64,000 nucleotides of DNA, from assembly GCA_001941225.1 (NCBI GenBank), contig MSHM01000040.1, positions 1 through 64,000 of the forward strand, given 5' to 3'. The notes under the pieces were generated by a model. The model ran no database searches. It saw nothing but the letters and a program-made list of their open reading frames with translations, and was not told the DNA's origin. This document shows positions 26,539-37,178 of this stretch, piece by piece (position 1 is the first letter of the stretch; the number at the start of each line of letters is the position of its first letter). The translations under genes were made by a program, and so were the position numbers. The stretch comes from Oscillospiraceae bacterium Zagget12. GTDB taxonomy: Bacteria > Bacillota > Clostridia > UBA1381.

Positions 26539-26567
26539 TTGACAAACTTTTTTTACTATGCTACAAT
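26539..26567 (+). promoter_or_regulatory. Strong sigma-A promoter of glnA
   Basis: TTGACA and TACAAT are exactly 17 bases apart. Transcription should start near 26574, directly at the attenuator. Confidence 0.85.
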
Positions 26568-26571
26568 AAAA

Positions 26572-26614
26572 AGGAGCAAAGGTGTTTCTTCCGTAGGGAT
26601 AGGAGCGCCTTTTT
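26572..26614 (+). promoter_or_regulatory. glnA leader attenuator with candidate ANTAR hairpin
   Basis: The leader can fold in two exclusive ways. One is a small hairpin (26572-26590) with hexaloop AAGGTG, carrying the A1 and G4 that ANTAR proteins recognise; its stem pairs AGGAG-A with T-TTCTT around one bulged C. The other is a terminator in which AAAGGTGTTTCT pairs with AGGAGCGCCTTT over 12 base pairs including G-U, followed by a T-run. The hexaloop bases form the terminator's 5' arm. The predicted start lies at the edge of the small hairpin, so its first pairs are uncertain. Readthrough would favour glnA expression. Confidence 0.6.
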
Positions 26615-26656: not shown

Positions 26657-27985
26657 ATGCTGACAAAACAGGATATTTTTGATTTGGTTGAAGAAGAGGA
26701 CGTAAGGTTTATACGTCTGCAATTTACGGATATGCTCGGAGCTATGCGGAATATGGCAGTCACAACGTCAAAGCTTGAGGACGCGCTGAATAATTTGTGT
26801 ATGTTTGACGGCTCGTCGATAAAGGGATTTGTAAGCGTTGAGGAAGGCGACCTTTATCTGCACCCCGACCTTGATACATTTTCGATTTTTCCGTGGAGAC
26901 CGCATCAGGGCAAGGTTGCAAGGCTTATATGCGACGTGTACACGCCCGACGGCAGACGTTTGGAAAGCGACCCGAGATATATTCTGCAAAACGCCGTAAA
27001 AGAGGCGGAGGAAATGGGCTACAGCTTTGAAGTCGGACCCGAATGTGAGTTCTTTCTGTTTAATACGGACGAAAGAGGAAATCCCACCGTGGAGCCGCAT
27101 GACAACGCGGGATATTTTGACCTTGCCCCGCTGGATAACGGCGAAAACTGCCGCCGTGAAATATGCCTTACCCTTGAGGAAATGGGATATAAGGTTGAGG
27201 CGTCGCACCACGAAATGGCGCCGGGACAGCACGAAATCACGTTCAGATATGACGACGCGCTAAAGACGGCGGACAGAATAGTAACCTTCAGAACGGTTGT
27301 AAAAACAATCGCGAAAAGGAACGGACTTCACGCCACGTTTATGCCAAAGCCTATGGCGGGCGTAAGCGGCAGCGGAATGCACCTCACAATGTCCCTAAAA
27401 AAGGACGGCAAAAATGTTTTCTATAATGAAAGCGACCCTGCAAAGCTTTCGGATACCGCGGCTAAATTTGCGGCGGGACTGCTTAAATATACGCCGGATA
27501 TGGCGTGCTTTACCAATCCCACGGTAAACTCATATAAGCGTTTCACGCCCGGATATGAGGCGCCGTGCTATATATCGTGGTCGGAAAGCAACAGGAGTCT
27601 GCTTTTGAGAGTGCCGTCCGTTAAGGACGGTCAGGACGCGCGCATAGAGCTGCGCTCACCCGACCCGACGGCAAATCCGTATCTTGCGCTGGCGGCGTGC
27701 CTCAAAGCCGGACTTAGGGGCATAAAGGACAACGAACAGCTGCCGCCGAGCATAGATGTGAATATATACAGTCTTTCAGACAAGGAGAGAGAATCTCTGG
27801 GAATAAAGAGTCTTCCGATAAGTCTTAACGAGGCAATAAAAATTGCAAGAAAATCGGATTTTGTAAAAGAGCTTTTGGGAGAAAAATTCGCCGCAAGTTA
27901 TTTTGAATCAAAAGAACAGGAATATGGAGAGTATCGTCAGACTATAAATCAATGGGAGATTGAAAAATATTTGATAGCTTATTAA
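26657..27985 (+). CDS. glnA: Glutamine synthetase type I
   Basis: A 442-residue GSI-alpha-type enzyme that makes glutamine from glutamate, ammonia and ATP. Conserved parts are visible: CMFDGSSIKGF near residue 53, the metal ligands in EVGPECEFFLF, the ASHHEMAPGQHEI block, HATFMPKPMAGVSGSGMH, and the ARIELRSPDPTANPYLA segment. The Tyr adenylylation loop of GSI-beta enzymes is absent, as expected for Bacillota. The start at 26657 has AAAGGA nine bases upstream. It is followed 27 bases later by the ANTAR regulator gene and is controlled by the leader attenuator. Confidence 0.97.
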   Translation: MLTKQDIFDLVEEEDVRFIRLQFTDMLGAMRNMAVTTSKLEDALNNLCMFDGSSIKGFVSVEEGDLYLHPDLDTFSIFPWRPHQGKVARLICDVYTPDGRRLESDPRYILQNAVKEAEEMGYSFEVGPECEFFLFNTDERGNPTVEPHDNAGYFDLAPLDNGENCRREICLTLEEMGYKVEASHHEMAPGQHEITFRYDDALKTADRIVTFRTVVKTIAKRNGLHATFMPKPMAGVSGSGMHLTMSLKKDGKNVFYNESDPAKLSDTAAKFAAGLLKYTPDMACFTNPTVNSYKRFTPGYEAPCYISWSESNRSLLLRVPSVKDGQDARIELRSPDPTANPYLALAACLKAGLRGIKDNEQLPPSIDVNIYSLSDKERESLGIKSLPISLNEAIKIARKSDFVKELLGEKFAASYFESKEQEYGEYRQTINQWEIEKYLIAY

Positions 27986-28012: not shown

Positions 28013-28537
28013 GTGGAGCGAGTAGTACTGGCATTTTCAAAAGACGCAACGGCTGATAAAATAAAAATGATGCTTGACGGCAGCGGCTATGATGTTTATA
28101 CGGTTTGCCACTCCAAGGCGGAATTGCTGCGTTCCATAGCGGATATTGACGAGGTGCTTGTAATTATGGGTTATAAGCTGCCCGACGGTGTCGCGGACGA
28201 CGTTTTTGACGACCTGCGGGAGGGTCAAAAGCTGATGAGCATAGTCAAAGCCGACAGGCAAAACGAAATATATAATGAGGATATTTTCGTTGTTACTCTT
28301 CCCGTAAACAGGCAGACTATGATAAATTCCATAGAAACCTTTGTCGGAATTATAGAACGCAGAAAGCACAGAGTAAAGCGGACGCCGGAGGAGGAGAAAA
28401 TCATAAACGACGCGAAAGCGTATCTTATGGAAAACCATATGATGACCGAGGAGCAGGCGCATCGTTTTATACAAAAACGCAGTATGGACATAGGCGCCAA
28501 ATTTATCGATACGGCAAGAGCGATATTAAATATTTAA
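28013..28537 (+). CDS. ANTAR-domain response-regulator-like antiterminator
   Basis: A 174-residue protein with a degenerate receiver-like N-terminal domain (about residues 1-95) and a C-terminal ANTAR domain (about 115-172). The ANTAR pattern is clear: EEEKIINDAKAYLMENHMMTEEQAHRFIQ, followed by a helix with RSMDIGAKFIDTARAIL. ANTAR proteins bind hairpins with an A1/G4 hexaloop and prevent terminator formation. The start is a GTG with AAGGAGGGGG upstream. Its place after glnA, and the matching leaders before glnA and gltB, make it the likely nitrogen antiterminator. The receiver lacks a typical acidic phosphorylation pocket, so activation may be phosphorylation-independent. Confidence 0.88.
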   Translation: MERVVLAFSKDATADKIKMMLDGSGYDVYTVCHSKAELLRSIADIDEVLVIMGYKLPDGVADDVFDDLREGQKLMSIVKADRQNEIYNEDIFVVTLPVNRQTMINSIETFVGIIERRKHRVKRTPEEEKIINDAKAYLMENHMMTEEQAHRFIQKRSMDIGAKFIDTARAILNI

Positions 28538-28567: not shown

Positions 28568-29410
28568 ATGCAGACATTTAAATTTTCAAAAATGCACGGA
28601 GCGGGAAACGATTATATATACGTAAACTGCTTTGAGGAAAAGGTTGAGGATATAAACGCCACAGCGAAGGCTGTCAGCGACAGGCATTTCGGAATAGGCT
28701 CGGACGGACTTGTGCTTATATGCCCGTCGGACAAAGCGGATTTCAGAATGGATATGTATAACAGCGACGGCTCACAGGCGGAAATGTGCGGAAACGCCAC
28801 GCGGTGCGTGGGTAAGTACGTCTATGACAGAGGTCTTACGGACAAAACGCAAATTACGCTTGAAACGCTTGCGGGAATTAAGGTTCTCGACCTTAACGTA
28901 AAGGACGGCGAGGTTGAAACGGTATGCGTGAATATGGGAAGTCCGGAGCTTATTCCGAAAAATATTCCCATCGATTCCGAGCTTGACCGTTTTATAAGCG
29001 AGGACGTGGAGGTTCAAGGCAAAACGTACAAGGTAACGGGCGTGTCGATGGGAAATCCGCACGCGGTCACGTTTATCGACGATACCGACAGTCTTGAGAT
29101 AGAAAAGCTCGGTCCCGACTTTGAAACGCATAAGCTGTTTCCGAGAAAAATCAATACCGAGTTCGCCCAAATTGTTGACAGAAAGACAATAAAAATGCGC
29201 GTATGGGAAAGAGGAGCGGGCGAAACGCTTGCCTGCGGTACCGGCGCCTGCGCGACGCTTGTCGCGGCGAGCCTGAATAATCTTACCGACGACGAGGCGG
29301 ATATTGTACTTCTCGGCGGAACACTTCACATACGCTGGGACAAGACCGAAAACAAGGTATATATGACCGGTCCGGCAAAGTTTGTGTTTGACGGAGTAAT
29401 AACACTGTAA
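28568..29410 (+). CDS. dapF: Diaminopimelate epimerase
   Basis: A 280-residue enzyme that converts LL- to meso-diaminopimelate for lysine and peptidoglycan. The two catalytic cysteines are Cys74 in EMCGNATRC and Cys223 in ETLACGTGAC, and the N-terminal KMHGAGNDYIYV is typical. It precedes dapL, which supplies its substrate, and follows the ANTAR gene by 30 bases, so it may share the glnA transcript. Confidence 0.96.
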   Translation: MQTFKFSKMHGAGNDYIYVNCFEEKVEDINATAKAVSDRHFGIGSDGLVLICPSDKADFRMDMYNSDGSQAEMCGNATRCVGKYVYDRGLTDKTQITLETLAGIKVLDLNVKDGEVETVCVNMGSPELIPKNIPIDSELDRFISEDVEVQGKTYKVTGVSMGNPHAVTFIDDTDSLEIEKLGPDFETHKLFPRKINTEFAQIVDRKTIKMRVWERGAGETLACGTGACATLVAASLNNLTDDEADIVLLGGTLHIRWDKTENKVYMTGPAKFVFDGVITL

Positions 29411-29436
29411 ATTATATTTGAAAGGATAAATGAAAA

Positions 29437-30648
29437 ATGGCAAAAATTAACGACAATTATTTAAAGCTGCCGGGAAGTTATCTGTTCTCGACAATCGCTA
29501 AAAAGGTTGCCGCGTATTCGGCGGCAAATCCCGATAAGAAAGTTATAAAAATGGGTATCGGCGATGTTACAAAGCCGCTTGCGCCCGCCGTTATCGAGGC
29601 TATGCACAAGGCGGTTGACGAAATGGGCACCGCGGAGGGATTTCGCGGCTACGGACCCGAGCAGGGCTATGACTTTTTAAGGGAAAAAATAGTTGAAAAG
29701 GATTATAAGGCAAGGGGCATAGATATTGCCGCCGATGAAATATTCGTTTCCGACGGCGCAAAGTCAGACTGCGGAAATATCGGCGATATTTTCTCCGTTG
29801 ATAATAAGGTAGCCGTATGCGACCCCGTATATCCCGTGTATGTTGACACAAACGCGATGGCGGGCAGAGCCGGCGACTTCATAGGCGAGCGTTGGTCAAA
29901 TCTGTATTATATGCCCTGCACCGAGGAGAACGGCTTTATGCCGCAGCTCCCGACGGAAAAGGTCGATATGATTTATCTTTGCTTTCCCAATAACCCGACG
30001 GGCGTAAGCGCCACAAGGGAACAGCTTAAGCCGTGGGTAGACTACGCTAAGGAAAACGGCGCGGTTATCCTTTACGACAGCGCGTATGAGGCGTTTATAA
30101 CAAATCCCGACGTGCCTCACAGTATATACGAAATCGAGGGCGCGAAAGAGGTTGCCATTGAATTCCGCAGCTTTTCAAAGACTGCCGGATTTACCGGTAC
30201 AAGATGCGCTTACACGGTGGTGCCGCACGAATTAAAGCTTGACGGGGTTGAGCTTAACGGTCTTTGGAACAGACGTCAATGCACAAAGTTCAACGGCGTG
30301 CCGTATATAATTCAAAAGGCTGCGGCGGCTGTTTATTCCGACGAGGGCTATAAGCAGACAAGGGACGCTATTGCGTATTATCTTGAAAACGCGAAGATTA
30401 TCCGCGAGGCGCTCACGGAGGCGGGACTCAGCGTGTACGGCGGCGAAAACGCTCCGTATATCTGGGCAAAAACGCCGAACGGTATGAAGTCTTGGGATTT
30501 CTTTGATAAATTGCTTGAGGAGGCAAATGTGGTAACAACTCCCGGCGCGGGATTCGGACCGAGCGGAGAGGGATATATAAGACTGACAGCGTTCTCTACT
30601 AAGGAAAATACCATAAAAGCAATGGAAAAAATTAAAGCAATTTTGTAA
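29437..30648 (+). CDS. dapL: LL-diaminopimelate aminotransferase
   Basis: A 403-residue class I/II PLP aminotransferase that converts tetrahydrodipicolinate directly to LL-diaminopimelate using glutamate. The N-terminal [10 protein letters not shown] and [17 protein letters not shown], the central [16 protein letters not shown] and the PLP lysine Lys248 in [14 protein letters not shown] are characteristic of DapL. It lies 26 bases after dapF. The enzyme uses the glutamate that GOGAT, encoded next, provides. Confidence 0.95.
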
Positions 30649-30657
30649 AATATACAG

Positions 30658-30686
30658 TAGACAAAACCGAAAATATATGTTATACT
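30658..30686 (+). promoter_or_regulatory. Sigma-A-type promoter of gltBD
   Basis: TAGACA and TATACT are exactly 17 bases apart, only ten bases after the dapL stop codon. The predicted start is near 30693, about 27 bases before the ANTAR-type hairpin. Confidence 0.7.
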
Positions 30687-30719
30687 ATGTTTTAGCGTAA
30701 GATAACAAAATATTTTCGG

Positions 30720-30788
30720 CGAAACAAGGGCGTTTCGGTTGGTACATATTCTCTTTTTGGATATATGTGCTAATTGGAGCGCCTTTTT
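30720..30788 (+). promoter_or_regulatory. gltB leader attenuator with ANTAR hairpin and overlapping terminator
   Basis: CGAAAC and GTTTCG form a perfect 6-bp stem around hexaloop AAGGGC (30720-30737), with the A1 and G4 expected for ANTAR recognition. Starting inside that loop, 30726-30749 can instead pair with 30763-30786 in an uninterrupted 24-bp helix (including G-U pairs) with a 13-base loop, followed by TTTTT: a strong terminator. The structures are mutually exclusive. The terminator's 3' arm GGAGCGCCTTTTT is identical to that of the glnA leader. A second upstream ANTAR hairpin, usual in described targets, is not convincing here. Confidence 0.72.
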
Positions 30789-30816
30789 GGTTATAACGTG
30801 AAAAATAAACTGCGCG

Positions 30817-30873
30817 GTAAGTTGCTATGCAACTTAGCCCAAAGGGCTTGACTGCAAAGCAGTCAACACTTAC
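30817..30873. repeat. 57-bp branched palindromic element before gltB
   Basis: Three perfect hairpins lie back to back: AGTTGC-tat-GCAACT (30820-30834), AGCCC-aaa-GGGCT (30836-30848) and TTGACTGC-aaa-GCAGTCAA (30848-30866). They are enclosed by GTAAGT (30817-30822) and ACTTAC (30868-30873). The shape is cloverleaf-like but does not match a tRNA. It may be a small mobile palindromic element or an mRNA structure; no second full copy was seen in the window. Confidence 0.75.
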
Positions 30874-31011
30874 TATTATTCAAGACTAGGAGTATATTTA
30901 TACGCCGTCGTCTTTCATAACAGCAATCTGCTTGTTTCTTTTCCGCGTTATGATTTGTGCCGCCGCGAGGCGGCGGAATGGCGATTAAAATGAGTGAAAG
31001 GATTGAAGGAA

Positions 31012-34000
31012 ATGGAGTACAACGGATTACCTGAGAAACAGGGTCTTTATGACCCGCAATTTGAGCATGATGCCTGCGGTATAGGCTTTATCGCCAATAT
31101 TAAGGGTAAAACCTCCCATGACATTATAAATCAGGCTATTCAGATTTTAAAAAATCTCGCGCACCGCGGCGGTGTCGGCAGTGAGCCGGATACGGGTGAC
31201 GGCGCGGGTATTCTTATTCAGATGCCTCATACCTTTATGGAAAAGGTATGTAAAAATGAGGACATTAAGCTCCCGAAAAAGGGCGATTACGGCGTAGGTA
31301 TGCTGTTTTTGTCGCCGGACGAGGATACAAGAGCCGAGAGCCTTAAAAAGCTGACCGCGATTATAGACGGCGAGGGTCAAAAGCTTTTGGGAATAAGAGA
31401 GGTTCCCGTTTACGAGGTATGTATCGGCAACAGCGCCCGCGAGGCAATGCCGCATATCGTTCAGGTATTTATCGGCAAAGGCTCGGACAGCCTTGACGCG
31501 GACTCCTTTGAGAGAAAGCTGTATATAATAGGAAAGATAGCGGAAAAGGAGATAAGAAAGAGCGGAATCGATAATTATTTCTATTTCGCGTCGTTGTCCG
31601 CGAGAACGCTTGTTTATAAGGGTATGCTTACGCCCGATCAGGTAAATGAATTTTACCTTGACCTAAAGGACGTTGATATGAAAACCGCAATCGCGCTTGT
31701 TCATTCGCGTTTTTCAACCAACACGTTCCCGTCGTGGGAGAGAGCACACCCGAACAGATATATTATTCATAACGGCGAAATCAACACGATACGCGGCAAT
31801 GAAAACTGGGTTAAGGCAAGGGAAAGAATGTTTGCCACACCCGAATTTGAGGGCGATATGGATAAAATTCTGCCCGTTATCAATGAGGACGGCTCAGACT
31901 CCGCAATGCTCGACAATTATCTTCAATTCCTGCACCTGTCGGGATTTTCTCTGCCGAGAGCGGTTATGATGACCATTCCGGAGCCGTGGGAAAACAATAA
32001 GGATATGGATCCCGCTCTGAAGTCGTTTTACGAGTATCATTCCTGTATCACGGAGCCGTGGGACGGCCCCGCCGCGGTCGCATTCACGGACGGACGTCTT
32101 GTCGGCGCGACTCTTGACAGGAACGGTTTAAGACCGGCGCGTTACTACGTCACTTCTGACGATATGATTATTCTTTCGTCGGAGGTCGGTGTTACCGACA
32201 TCGACAACGCGAAAATTATAAAGAAAGAGCGTCTGCACCCGGGTAAGATGCTCCTTATCGACACGGAACAGGGCAAGATTATTTCCGACGAGGAGATAAA
32301 GAAAGAGGAGGCACTCCATAAGCCGTATGCGGAATGGGTAAAAAAGACGCTTGTAGAGCTTGACGACCTCCCCGCGGACACCGGAAAAACGGGCGACACC
32401 TGGCACGACCTTGTGCGCCGTCTTAAGGATAACGCAAAGGGCAATGTGAACGAGCATCTTCTATTGAAGAATTTCATCGTTCTTGAAAATATGTTTGTGA
32501 ACCGCGAAAACAGCGAGGATACACTTCCGCTTTTGACGCGCCAAAAGGCGTTCGGATATACCTGGGAGGATATAAACACAACAATTAAAGCGATAGTTGA
32601 AAAGGCTGACGACCCAATCGGCGCAATGGGTACGGATATACCTCTTGCGGTGCTTTCGGAAAAACCGCAGCTTTTGTATAACTACTTCAAGCAGCTTTTC
32701 GCGCAGGTAACGAATCCGCCTATCGACGCAATCCGCGAGCAGATTGTAACCTCAACCTACACGCTTTTCGGCTGCGAGCAGAATTTGCTTACATCATCGG
32801 AGCTTAACTGCCGTAAGGTAAGAGCACTCAGTCCGATACTGACGAACGAGGAGCTTAAAAAGCTGAGAAATATCAACCTTGAGGGATTTAAGTCAATCAC
32901 AATTCCGTCGCTCTTTAACAAAAACCAGGAGAACGATATGGAAACGGCTATGGAAACAATCTTCGAGGCGGCGGACATAGCTATTGAAAACGGATATAAT
33001 ATAATAATACTTTCCGATAAGGGTATAGACAAGGATAAAGCACCGATTCCGGCATTGCTTGTGGCATCGGGACTGCATCATCACCTTATAAGGCGCGGCA
33101 CAAGAATGAAGGTTTCAATCGTTCTTGAATCGGGCGAGCCGAGAGAGGTACATCATTTCGCCTGCCTCATCGGCTACGGCGTAAACGGCGTGAACCCGTA
33201 TATGGCATATGAGGCTATAGAGGAGCTTGTCAATGATAAGCTTGTGGAGTACAGCTATGAGGAGGGTGTAAAGCGTTTCAATAAGGCTTGCACCAAGGGC
33301 ATAGTAAAGGTTATGTCTAAAATGGGTATTTCAACAATTCAGTCGTACCAGGGCGCGCAGATATTCGAGGCGCTCGGCATAGCGCAGAGCGTTGTTGAGA
33401 AGTACTTCACGGGCACAACCACCAGAATAGGCGGTATCGGTCTTGAGCATATTCAAAAAGAGGTGCTTTTGCGCCACGCAGAGGCATTTGATAAGGTAAG
33501 CGGCAAAAAGGCGCTTAAAACAGGCGGCGAGTACAAGTGGAGAGCAAAGGGCGAATATCATATGTTTAACCCCGAGTCAATCTACAAGCTGCAAATGGCG
33601 TGCCGCACAGGCAATTATAAGCTGTATAAGGAATACGCCAAGGAAATGGACGAACACCAGCAGCACCAGTGCACAATCCGCGGTATGCTTGATATAAAGA
33701 CGATAGATAAGCCGATTGCCATAGATAAGGTTGAGAGCGTGGAAAGCATCGTAAAGCGTTTCAAAACGGGCGCGATGTCATACGGCTCGATTTCGCAGGA
33801 GGCTCACGAGTGCCTCGCGGTCGCTATGAACAGGCTCGGCGGTAAGTCGAACAGCGGCGAGGGCGGCGAAAATCCGGAGAGATACATTCTTGACGAAAAC
33901 GGCGACAGCCGCTCGAGCGCGATTAAGCAGGTCGCGTCGGGACGTTTCGGCGTTCATATTCATTACCTTCAGAATGCAAAGGAAATTCAGATAAAAATGG

Positions 34001-35709
34001 CGCAGGGCGCAAAGCCGGGCGAGGGCGGACATTTGCCGGGCGGCAAGGTGTACCCGTGGATTGCAAAGGCAAGACATTCAACGCCGGGCGTGGGACTTAT
34101 CTCACCTCCGCCGCACCATGACATATACTCAATCGAGGATTTGGCTCAGCTTATCCACGACCTCAAAAACGCGAACCGCAACGCGAGAGTTACCGTAAAG
34201 CTCGTTTCCGAGGCGGGCGTCGGCACAATCGCCGTCGGCGTTGCAAAGGGCAGAGCTGACGTTATCCTTGTATCGGGCTATGACGGCGGTACGGGCGCGG
34301 CTCCGAGAACCAGCGTTCGCCACGCGGGACTGCCGTGGGAGCTTGGCGTTGCCGAAACGCATCAGGCGCTTTTGATGAATAATCTCCGTAACAGAGTTGT
34401 TATAGAAACGGACGGTAAGCTTTTGACCGGACGCGATGTCGCGGTCGCGGCGCTTTTGGGCGCGGAGGAATTCGGCTTTGCCACGGGTCCGCTGATTTCG
34501 ATAGGCTGCGTAATGATGAGAGTATGTAACCTTGATACCTGTCCCGTCGGCGTTGCCACGCAGAATCCGAAACTCAGAAAGCGTTTCTGCGGCAGACCGG
34601 AATACGTTGAAAACTTTATGCGCTTTATCGCTCAGGATTTGAGAGAGTGGATGGCAAAAATCGGCGTAAAAACGGTTGACGAGATGATAGGACACGTTGA
34701 AAGACTGAGCCAAAAAACAATCGAGGATAACTGGAAAGCGAAAGAGGTTGACCTGTCGTCACTTCTGTACCAGCCGAAAATCTGTTCGAACGATTATGAG
34801 AGATACCATAACGTGATGCAGGATCACGAGCTTTATAAAACTCTCGATATGAACACATTGCTTAAGCTTTGCGAGCCGGCTATAAGAGGCGGCAAGAAGA
34901 TTGAGGCAAAGCTTGAAATAACAAATATAAACCGTGTAACGGGCACAATACTCTCCTCGGAAATCGCGAGAGAGCACGGCGAAGAGGGACTTCCGGAGGA
35001 CAGCATAAAGCTTTGCTTTGTGGGCAGCGCGGGACAGAGTTTCGGCGCGTTCCTTGCTCCGGGCGTCACAATGAGGCTTGAGGGCGACAGCAACGACTAT
35101 ATCGGAAAGGGACTGTCGGGCGGCAAGATTGTCATTGTTCCTCCGTCGGACGCCGTATTCAATCCGAGCGAAAACGTCATCATAGGCAACGTGGCGTTCT
35201 ACGGCGCGATAAAGGGCGAGGCGTATATACGCGGCACCGCGGGTGAGCGTTTCTGCGTAAGAAACTCCGGTATGACGGCGGTTGTCGAGGGCATCGGCGA
35301 CCACGGCTGCGAGTATATGACCGGCGGCTGCGTCGCGGTAATCGGCAAAACCGGCAGAAACTTTGCCGCGGGTATGTCGGGCGGTATCGCGTATGTCTAC
35401 GATAAGGACGGAAACCTTGAGCGCAGCTGCAACAAGGAGCTTGTATCCCTTGAGGGTATGGAGGATAAGGACGCGGCAAGGCTGAAGGAAATGCTTGAAA
35501 AGCATTTTGAATACACCGCGAGCGACGTTGCGGAGAATATCCTAAACAACTGGGACAGCGAGCTGGGCAGCTTTGTAAAGGTAATTCCGAATGACTATAA
35601 AAAGGTTATAACCGTTCTTGAAGAGGAATTGGAAAAGGGAACGGACAGAGATGAGGCAATGCTGATAGCATTTGAAAATGTAACAGGTAAAAAGGTAGAG
35701 GTAGCGTAA
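31012..35709 (+). CDS. gltB: Glutamate synthase large subunit
   Basis: A 1565-residue alpha subunit of NADPH-GOGAT, which transfers the glutamine amide to 2-oxoglutarate. The class II glutaminase domain begins with Cys22 in [15 protein letters not shown]; a short propeptide is expected to be removed to expose it. The central and FMN domains carry [13 protein letters not shown] and [10 protein letters not shown]. The 3Fe-4S cysteines lie in [15 protein letters not shown]. The C-terminal beta-helix has [21 protein letters not shown]. The ATG at 31012 has AAAGGA ten bases upstream; an in-frame GTG at 30994 lacks one. It pairs with gltD and is preceded by the ANTAR-type attenuator. Confidence 0.96.
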
Positions 35710-35723
35710 GGAGGATTGTAACA

Positions 35724-37178
35724 ATGGGAAAACCAACAGGATTTTTAGAATATAAAAGACAACTTCCCGAGGACAGACCTCCGAAGGAAAGAATGAAGGA
35801 CTGGGACGAGTTCCATACGCATTTCGACCTGAAAACCCTACAACTTCAGGGCGCGAGATGTATGGACTGCGGAGTGCCGTTCTGTCATACGGGTAAGCAG
35901 ATTGGAAGAACATCTATAGGCTGTCCTTTGAATAATCTTATTCCGGAGTGGAATGATTTGGTGTACAGAGGCGATATGGACGAGGCATACAGACGTCTTT
36001 CGCTCACAAACAACTTTCCGGAATTTACGGGCAGAGTTTGTCCGGCGTTATGCGAGGGCTCATGCACGCTTGGTATGCACGACCCCGCGGTGACTATAAA
36101 GAATATCGAGTGTCACATTATAGATACTATGTTCGAGGAGGGCAAGGTAAAGCCGAGAATACCCGAAAAATCGACCGAAAAGCGTGTCGCGGTAGTCGGC
36201 AGCGGACCGGCGGGACTTGCGTGCGCCGACCAGCTCAATCAGATGGGACACAGAGTAACCGTGTTTGAGAGGGCCGACAGAGCCGGCGGACTGCTTATGT
36301 ACGGTATTCCGAATATGAAACTTGACAAAAGGGTTGTACAACGCAGAGTTGAGCTTATGGAAAAAGAGGGAGTTACCTTTAAACTGAACACGGAAATCGG
36401 CAAGAATTATCCGGCTGTAAAGCTGGTAAACGAGTTTGACGCGGTTGTGCTTTGCTGCGGCTCCACAAAGCCGAGAGCGCTTACCGTTGAGGGCGCGGAC
36501 TTAAAGGGTGTGCATTACGCGGTGGATTTCCTCAAGGCGAATACAAAGAGCCTGCTTGACTCAAACCTTGAGGACAGAATGTATATCAATGCCGAGGGCA
36601 AGAATGTCATTGTTGTCGGCGGCGGCGATACGGGTACCGACTGCGTCGGCACGTCTATAAGACACGGCTGCAACAGCGTTACTCAGCTTGAAATAATGCC
36701 GGAGCTTTCCGAGGAAAGACTTCCGAGCAATCCCTGGCCCGAATGGCCGAGAGTTAAAAAGACCGATTACGGTCAGGAGGAGGCAATCGAGCTTTACGGA
36801 CATGACCCGAGAGAATACCTTACCACGGTCACGAAAATCGAGGGTGACGAAAAGGGCAGAGTTAAGGCTGTTCATACGGTAGAGGTTGATTGGTCCACGG
36901 GCTCGCCCGTTCCTGTAAAGGGCACGGAAAAGGTAAGACCATGCGAGCTTGTTCTTATAGCAATGGGATTTTTGGGACCCGAGCAGGAGCTTTTAAACCA
37001 GCTTACGCTTGACACCGACGCGAGAAGTAATATTCACGCGAGCGAGGACGATTATAAAACAAGCCTCAGAGGCGTATTTGCGGCGGGCGACTGCCGCAGA
37101 GGTCAAAGCCTTGTTGTATGGGCAATTCGCGAGGGACGCCGCGCGGCTGACGCGGTTGACGAATTCCTGATGAAGTAA
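35724..37178 (+). CDS. gltD: Glutamate synthase small subunit
   Basis: A 484-residue FAD- and NADPH-binding subunit that feeds electrons to GltB. The N-terminal cysteines for 4Fe-4S clusters are seen in CMDCGVPFC and [12 protein letters not shown]. The FAD motif is [14 protein letters not shown] and the NADPH motif [11 protein letters not shown]. The C-terminal [19 protein letters not shown] closes the FAD site. It starts 14 bases after gltB with AAGGAGG, and a strong terminator follows. Confidence 0.97.

Follow-up and report, generated by a model that had tools for sequence, protein, structure and literature searches.

NitR of solvent-forming clostridia is an ANTAR-type regulator whose gene is linked to glnA, and it has been proposed as an antiterminator for ammonia assimilation. 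This glnA-linked regulator is cited in PMC4676874. ANTAR targets have been defined as dual hairpins, and removal of the upstream hairpin (P1) abolishes induction by EutV (PMC3369931). Both hexaloops were reported as needed for EutV; an ANTAR dimer was shown to bind one hexaloop at a time, and the single hexaloop was redefined as the unit of binding; the role of lone hexaloops was left open, with the supposition that they serve where transcription imposes no time pressure, and bioinformatic work on them was urged (PMC8934654). The current model requires two hexaloops, one recruiting the protein and the second blocking the terminator. Dual-hairpin targets were predicted before Desulfotomaculum glutamate synthase genes (PMC3369931), and another target search again demanded two stem-loops (PMC8164766). 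Leaders with one hexaloop could therefore not be found by either search. We found no description of one-hexaloop antiterminators in the openly readable literature, and subscription papers on clostridial NitR may hold one.

The gltB leader described here, located in a 64,000-nt stretch of DNA analysed as a whole (the window), resembles Enterococcus faecalis eut, Klebsiella oxytoca nasF and Pseudomonas aeruginosa amiE in that a hexaloop with A1 and G4 sits on a short stem over the 5' arm of a terminator. Further likenesses are a cognate ANTAR protein and nitrogen-related genes, with glutamate and glutamine synthase among the earlier predictions (PMC3369931, PMC8934654). Those systems have two hexaloops, whereas the leaders here appear to have one, frequently positioned right where the predicted transcript begins. 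As for NitR, the ANTAR gene lies directly downstream of glnA; what differs is that a candidate site, a regulon and a one-hairpin layout are described here. From sequence comparison, we consider it likely (probability of roughly 0.8) that the gltB leader attenuates transcription in a protein-dependent manner, as part of a nitrogen regulon controlled by one-hexaloop ANTAR antitermination.

Two exclusive folds in the gltB and glnA leaders

Table 1. Genes, predicted promoters and RNA elements of the glnA and gltB operons (window positions).
Feature	Position	Strand	Evidence
Predicted glnA promoter, TTGACA-17-TACAAT	26539..26567	+	consensus
Hexaloop hairpin GGAGC[AAAGGT]GTTTC, glnA leader, at predicted transcript 5' end	26573..26588	+	sequence
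Terminator of glnA leader, overlaps hairpin	26578..26614	+	fold
glnA, glutamine synthetase, operon with ANTAR gene	26657..27985	+	Pfam
NitR-like ANTAR protein, likely regulator; ANTAR domain after a receiver-like domain that lacks the phosphoacceptor Asp	28013..28537	+	Pfam, model
Predicted gltB promoter, TAGACA-17-TATACT (-35 30658-30663, -10 30681-30686)	30658..30686	+	consensus, spacing 17, shared by relatives' gltB leaders
Weak upstream hairpin AAGAUA[ACAAAA]UAUUUU, gltB leader; no G4, not a canonical P1	30699..30716	+	sequence
ANTAR-type hexaloop hairpin (candidate antiterminator) CGAAAC[AAGGGC]GTTTCG, gltB leader	30720..30737	+	sequence, conservation, covariation
Intrinsic terminator 5' arm, gltB leader; overlaps hairpin loop and 3' arm	30726..30749	+	fold, covariation
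Terminator 3' arm (30763-30786) and U-tract, gltB leader	30763..30788	+	fold, covariation
gltB, glutamate synthase large subunit (ATG 31012)	31012..35709	+	Pfam GATase_2, Glu_synthase, GXGXG
gltD, glutamate synthase small subunit	35724..37178	+	Pfam

An earlier note on this DNA had claimed a 6-bp stem with hexaloop AAGGGC, carrying A1 and G4, an uninterrupted 24-bp terminator helix followed by a U-tract, and the incompatibility of these two folds. All three claims stood: the elements lie where they had been placed (Table 1), 7 of the 24 terminator pairs are G·U, and bases 30726-30737 are common to both structures, making them mutually exclusive. The leader folds at -38.8 kcal/mol (z = -7.4), a value equalled in none of 200 shuffles. 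Energy alone favours the terminator (-34.1 kcal/mol, vs -20.1 kcal/mol with the hairpin forced), as would be expected if a protein must hold the hairpin. A hairpin with a stem of at least 6 bp overlapping a terminator of at least 20 bp arose in none of 3,000 dinucleotide shuffles, and a relaxed scan (stem of at least 5 bp, terminator of at least 13 bp) returned three places in the 64 kb, namely the gltB leader, the glnA leader and one other. The sole match in the window at Rfam gathering thresholds was a 6S RNA (RF00013, 55222-55414, 65 bits), so the gltB leader falls under no known riboswitch.

From the promoter consensus, the gltB transcript is predicted to start near 30693. The earlier note had overlooked that the glnA-nitR operon carries the same switch (26573-26614); its hairpin begins 5 nt past the -10 box, at about the first transcribed base if the predicted promoter is right. 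Between the ANTAR gene and gltB lie dapF and a dapL-like aminotransferase gene (28568-30648), the latter also found 5' of gltB in several relatives. An interspersed repeat of ~190 nt separates the gltB terminator from the gltB start (30796-30985); it has 23 more partial copies elsewhere in the genome at 79-100% identity, and this position is empty in a near-identical relative (G006, L033). Four gltB leaders of relatives (L039, L040, L042 and L047) carry big insertions rich in inverted repeats inside the terminator loop (spans of 135-193 nt), with the hairpin and terminator stem undisturbed.

Covariation of both folds and conservation of the loop

Leaders were collected from relatives, mostly of gltB and glnA with a few of glnN and gdhA, giving 64 sites with 62 distinct 30-nt cores. 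Over these 62 leaders the hairpin stem was 93.5% paired with 40 both-sides changes, a level reached by none of 500 shuffles, and for the 43 sequences comprising hairpin plus terminator the terminator was 96.1% paired with 61 both-sides changes (the leaders are related, and shuffle counts here are not probabilities). No shuffle among 500 attained either the percentage paired or the covariation score of the terminator, and slid pairing partners performed far worse. The same strand thus covaries with two different partners, which is the signature of a two-state switch.

Within the loop, A1 and G4 were conserved while position 3 and the stems varied. As the first collection had used an A..G.. loop pattern, the glnA leaders were rescanned without it, and A1 was recovered in 27 and G4 in 28 of 31. 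The earlier note had made its reading depend on conservation of the stem and of A1 and G4 in relatives, and these figures bear it out. Most pattern-free exceptions proved by eye to be mis-registered (L088, L093, L111 and L112); in L093 the loop is ACAGGC, with position 2 changed and A1 and G4 kept, and one glnA leader (L084, loop GAAGGT) is a genuine G1 exception. Some hairpin stems have just 3 bp, in agreement with a report that EutV touches the three closing pairs (PMC8934654). Weighing against the reading as a switch under NitR, the arrangement was absent from several gltB genes of the family (L050, L060, L061, L105 and L106).

Hairpins at the 5' end generally stabilise transcripts, and some conservation of the hexaloop bases is due to their second role in terminator pairs. 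Both points would fit a terminator, regulated or constitutive, preceded by a 5'-end hairpin acting in RNA stability or with another factor, the ANTAR protein being uninvolved. We regard this as improbable, since loop position 4 never covaries away from G (40 GC and 3 GU in its terminator pair) whereas the adjacent terminator pairs do covary, and since the sites co-occur with ANTAR genes and nitrogen genes, the regulator gene itself lying inside one target operon. Still less probable, in our judgement, is that NitR binds the single hexaloop and acts otherwise than by antitermination, for example through sequestration or repression. Precedents for such roles exist, in that single hexaloops have been suggested for the sequestration of EutV by EutX (PMC8934654) and mycobacterial ANTAR targets affect translation (PMC8164766), but in the collected sites the hairpin overlaps the terminator 5' arm, both folds covary, and the hairpin lies tens to hundreds of nucleotides from start codons.

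Space for a second hexaloop

The earlier note had suspected a variant with one hairpin, and the suspicion gained support mainly from promoter positions. The best promoter was located for 96 sites, of which 86 were strong, almost all resembling TTGACA-17-TATAAT, and transcript starts were predicted from these. Of the 86 leaders with a strong predicted promoter, 58 leave less than 12 nt of transcript 5' of the hairpin stem, and in all 30 glnA leaders the hairpin lies at -2 to +6 nt from the predicted start. If the predicted promoters are right, a second hexaloop (P1) and its linker cannot fit into so short a space. The remaining 28 leaders have room for more RNA upstream, including the gltB leader of this genome, where, as in its closest relatives, ~27 nt would precede the hexaloop hairpin. 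Only three of these 28 hold any A..G.. hexaloop on at least 3 bp, which we take as chance. A second A1/G4 hexaloop a short linker upstream was accepted neither in the gltB leader of the window nor in the promoter-placed leaders. Main texts of papers on Clostridium difficile and Clostridium cellulolyticum gave no mapped glnA or gltB transcript starts.

As a positive control, the same scan recovered two hexaloops in a eut operon from Clostridia (L222:6066), where GGAGTAC[AATGAA]GTACTCT is followed by GGC[AAAGAA]GCC and a 24-bp terminator adjoining a gene for an EutV-type regulator; the control consists of this one locus, no dual hexaloop being trusted in other eut loci.

The leaders could nevertheless be ordinary dual-hexaloop targets whose P1 is degenerate or unrecognised, at 30699-30716 in the gltB leader and hidden in glnA, for example in the terminator 3' arm. 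A 6-bp hexaloop hairpin with A1 does end 3 nt 5' of the gltB hexaloop hairpin, and four relatives (L034-L037) retain part of its sequence, A(A/G)GATAACAAAATAA. Pairing between the terminator 3' arm and the U-tract can also produce an A..G.. hexaloop in some glnA leaders. However, the upstream gltB loop has A4 in place of G4 and its stem is broken in those relatives; the glnA, gdhA, amtB and archaeal-type gltB leaders offer no transcribed space if the predicted promoters are right; and the 3'-arm candidate (GGAGA[AGCGCC]UUUUU), rejected as a second site, occurs in a minority of the 96 sites and does not retain G4 (e.g. ACGTCT, ATACCC, AGCACC). We therefore think a concealed second hexaloop unlikely, if less so than the two alternatives weighed above, and we read the arrangement as an apparent variant of ANTAR antitermination that uses a single hexaloop. 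Another candidate, a 3-bp UUU[AGCGUA]AGA 5' of the gltB hairpin, was rejected as absent from relatives. Two longer leaders of glnN (type III glutamine synthetase) carry a pentaloop hairpin 5' of the single hexaloop (CAGTTG-GGGTT-CAACTG and GTTAGTT-AAGAC-AACTAAC, in L135 and L184).

Lone hexaloops that overlap terminators occur naturally in large number here, many of them at the predicted start of transcription, and make it directly testable whether one hexaloop suffices during transcription.

The NitR-like protein as likely regulator and its candidate regulon

The earlier note had pointed to an ANTAR protein encoded upstream of gltB as the likely regulator, and the 28013-28537 product indeed matches Pfam ANTAR (PF03861) at 1.3e-13 (51 bits, against a cut-off of 27.3). 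It is the sole ANTAR gene found in this genome, in an assembly that is 77% complete, and orthologues occur through the genus and family. As in AmiR, NasT, EutV and Rv1626, a receiver-like domain is joined to an ANTAR domain; the protein model (pLDDT 86.7) has its best matches in Rv1626 and EutV, and its N-terminal half adopts the receiver fold. Unlike EutV, this NitR lacks the phosphoacceptor Asp (LVIMGYKLPD, with MG for MD, vs LVLMDVKMP in an EutV-type protein), so activation is probably not via phosphorylation. Several RNA-contact residues are also changed: K149, E160 and M172 of EutV are kept, whereas R142, R168 and R175 are replaced by E, Q and G, and the Tyr164 position is His. This His was considered as a mark of a one-hairpin clade and rejected, AmiR having His too. 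Given a receiver without Asp and the analogy with AmiC-AmiR and NasS-NasT, we speculate that the most likely nitrogen sensor for NitR is a partner protein, for example glutamine synthetase itself.

A covariance model (R1, E-values rough) was built from 43 glnA and gltB leaders, and target genes were named by reading translated sequences. Within this genome it matched sites before glnA (3e-7) and gltB (3e-4) and four further candidates, two of them significant, before a circularly permuted (CP) ATP-grasp gene (1e-4) and the type III glutamine synthetase gene (5e-4), and two weak, before a putrescine aminotransferase-like gene (0.13) and gatC (1.5). Across 101 relatives, matches outside the training set lay mostly before glnN, and also before amtB, gdhA, asnA, purC, a puuD-like gene, an archaeal-type glutamate synthase gene (gltB) and the ATP-grasp gene. 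Similar leaders were also seen in Lachnospiraceae and Oscillospiraceae assemblies and in Yanshouia hominis. In 148 genomes across Clostridia, R1 matches occurred in 21 of 73 with an ANTAR gene vs 2 of 75 without (p = 7e-6), and the association held with the own family and training genomes removed (p = 2e-4). Matches in ANTAR-less genomes G070, G079 and G080 do not precede nitrogen genes and were taken as chance. G053 has a site before the CP-ATP-grasp gene with no ANTAR gene found in an assembly that is 69% complete.

We propose that the nascent gltB leader alone would fold into the 24-bp terminator, halting transcription before gltBD. Under nitrogen shortage, the NitR-like protein from the glnA operon would become active, perhaps through a partner such as glutamine synthetase acting as sensor, and would bind the single AnnGnn hexaloop hairpin as it emerges from the polymerase. 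The bound hairpin would hold the strand of the terminator 5' arm and permit read-through, with no need for an upstream recruiting hairpin, unlike EutV or NasR targets. Since the same switch precedes glnA-nitR, glnN and further nitrogen genes, the result would be a regulon, here outlined for many uncultured Clostridia, whose regulator would reinforce its own expression. With rather less assurance, we lean towards a broader picture in which a clostridial nitrogen regulon operates through one-hexaloop ANTAR antiterminators at the transcript start, the two-hairpin model is not general, and a partner, whether glutamine synthetase or some other protein, controls the Asp-less NitR receiver. In two members of other Clostridia families (L117 and L122), a glutamate dehydrogenase gene lies directly 3' of the ANTAR gene, and a single-hexaloop switch sits between the two.
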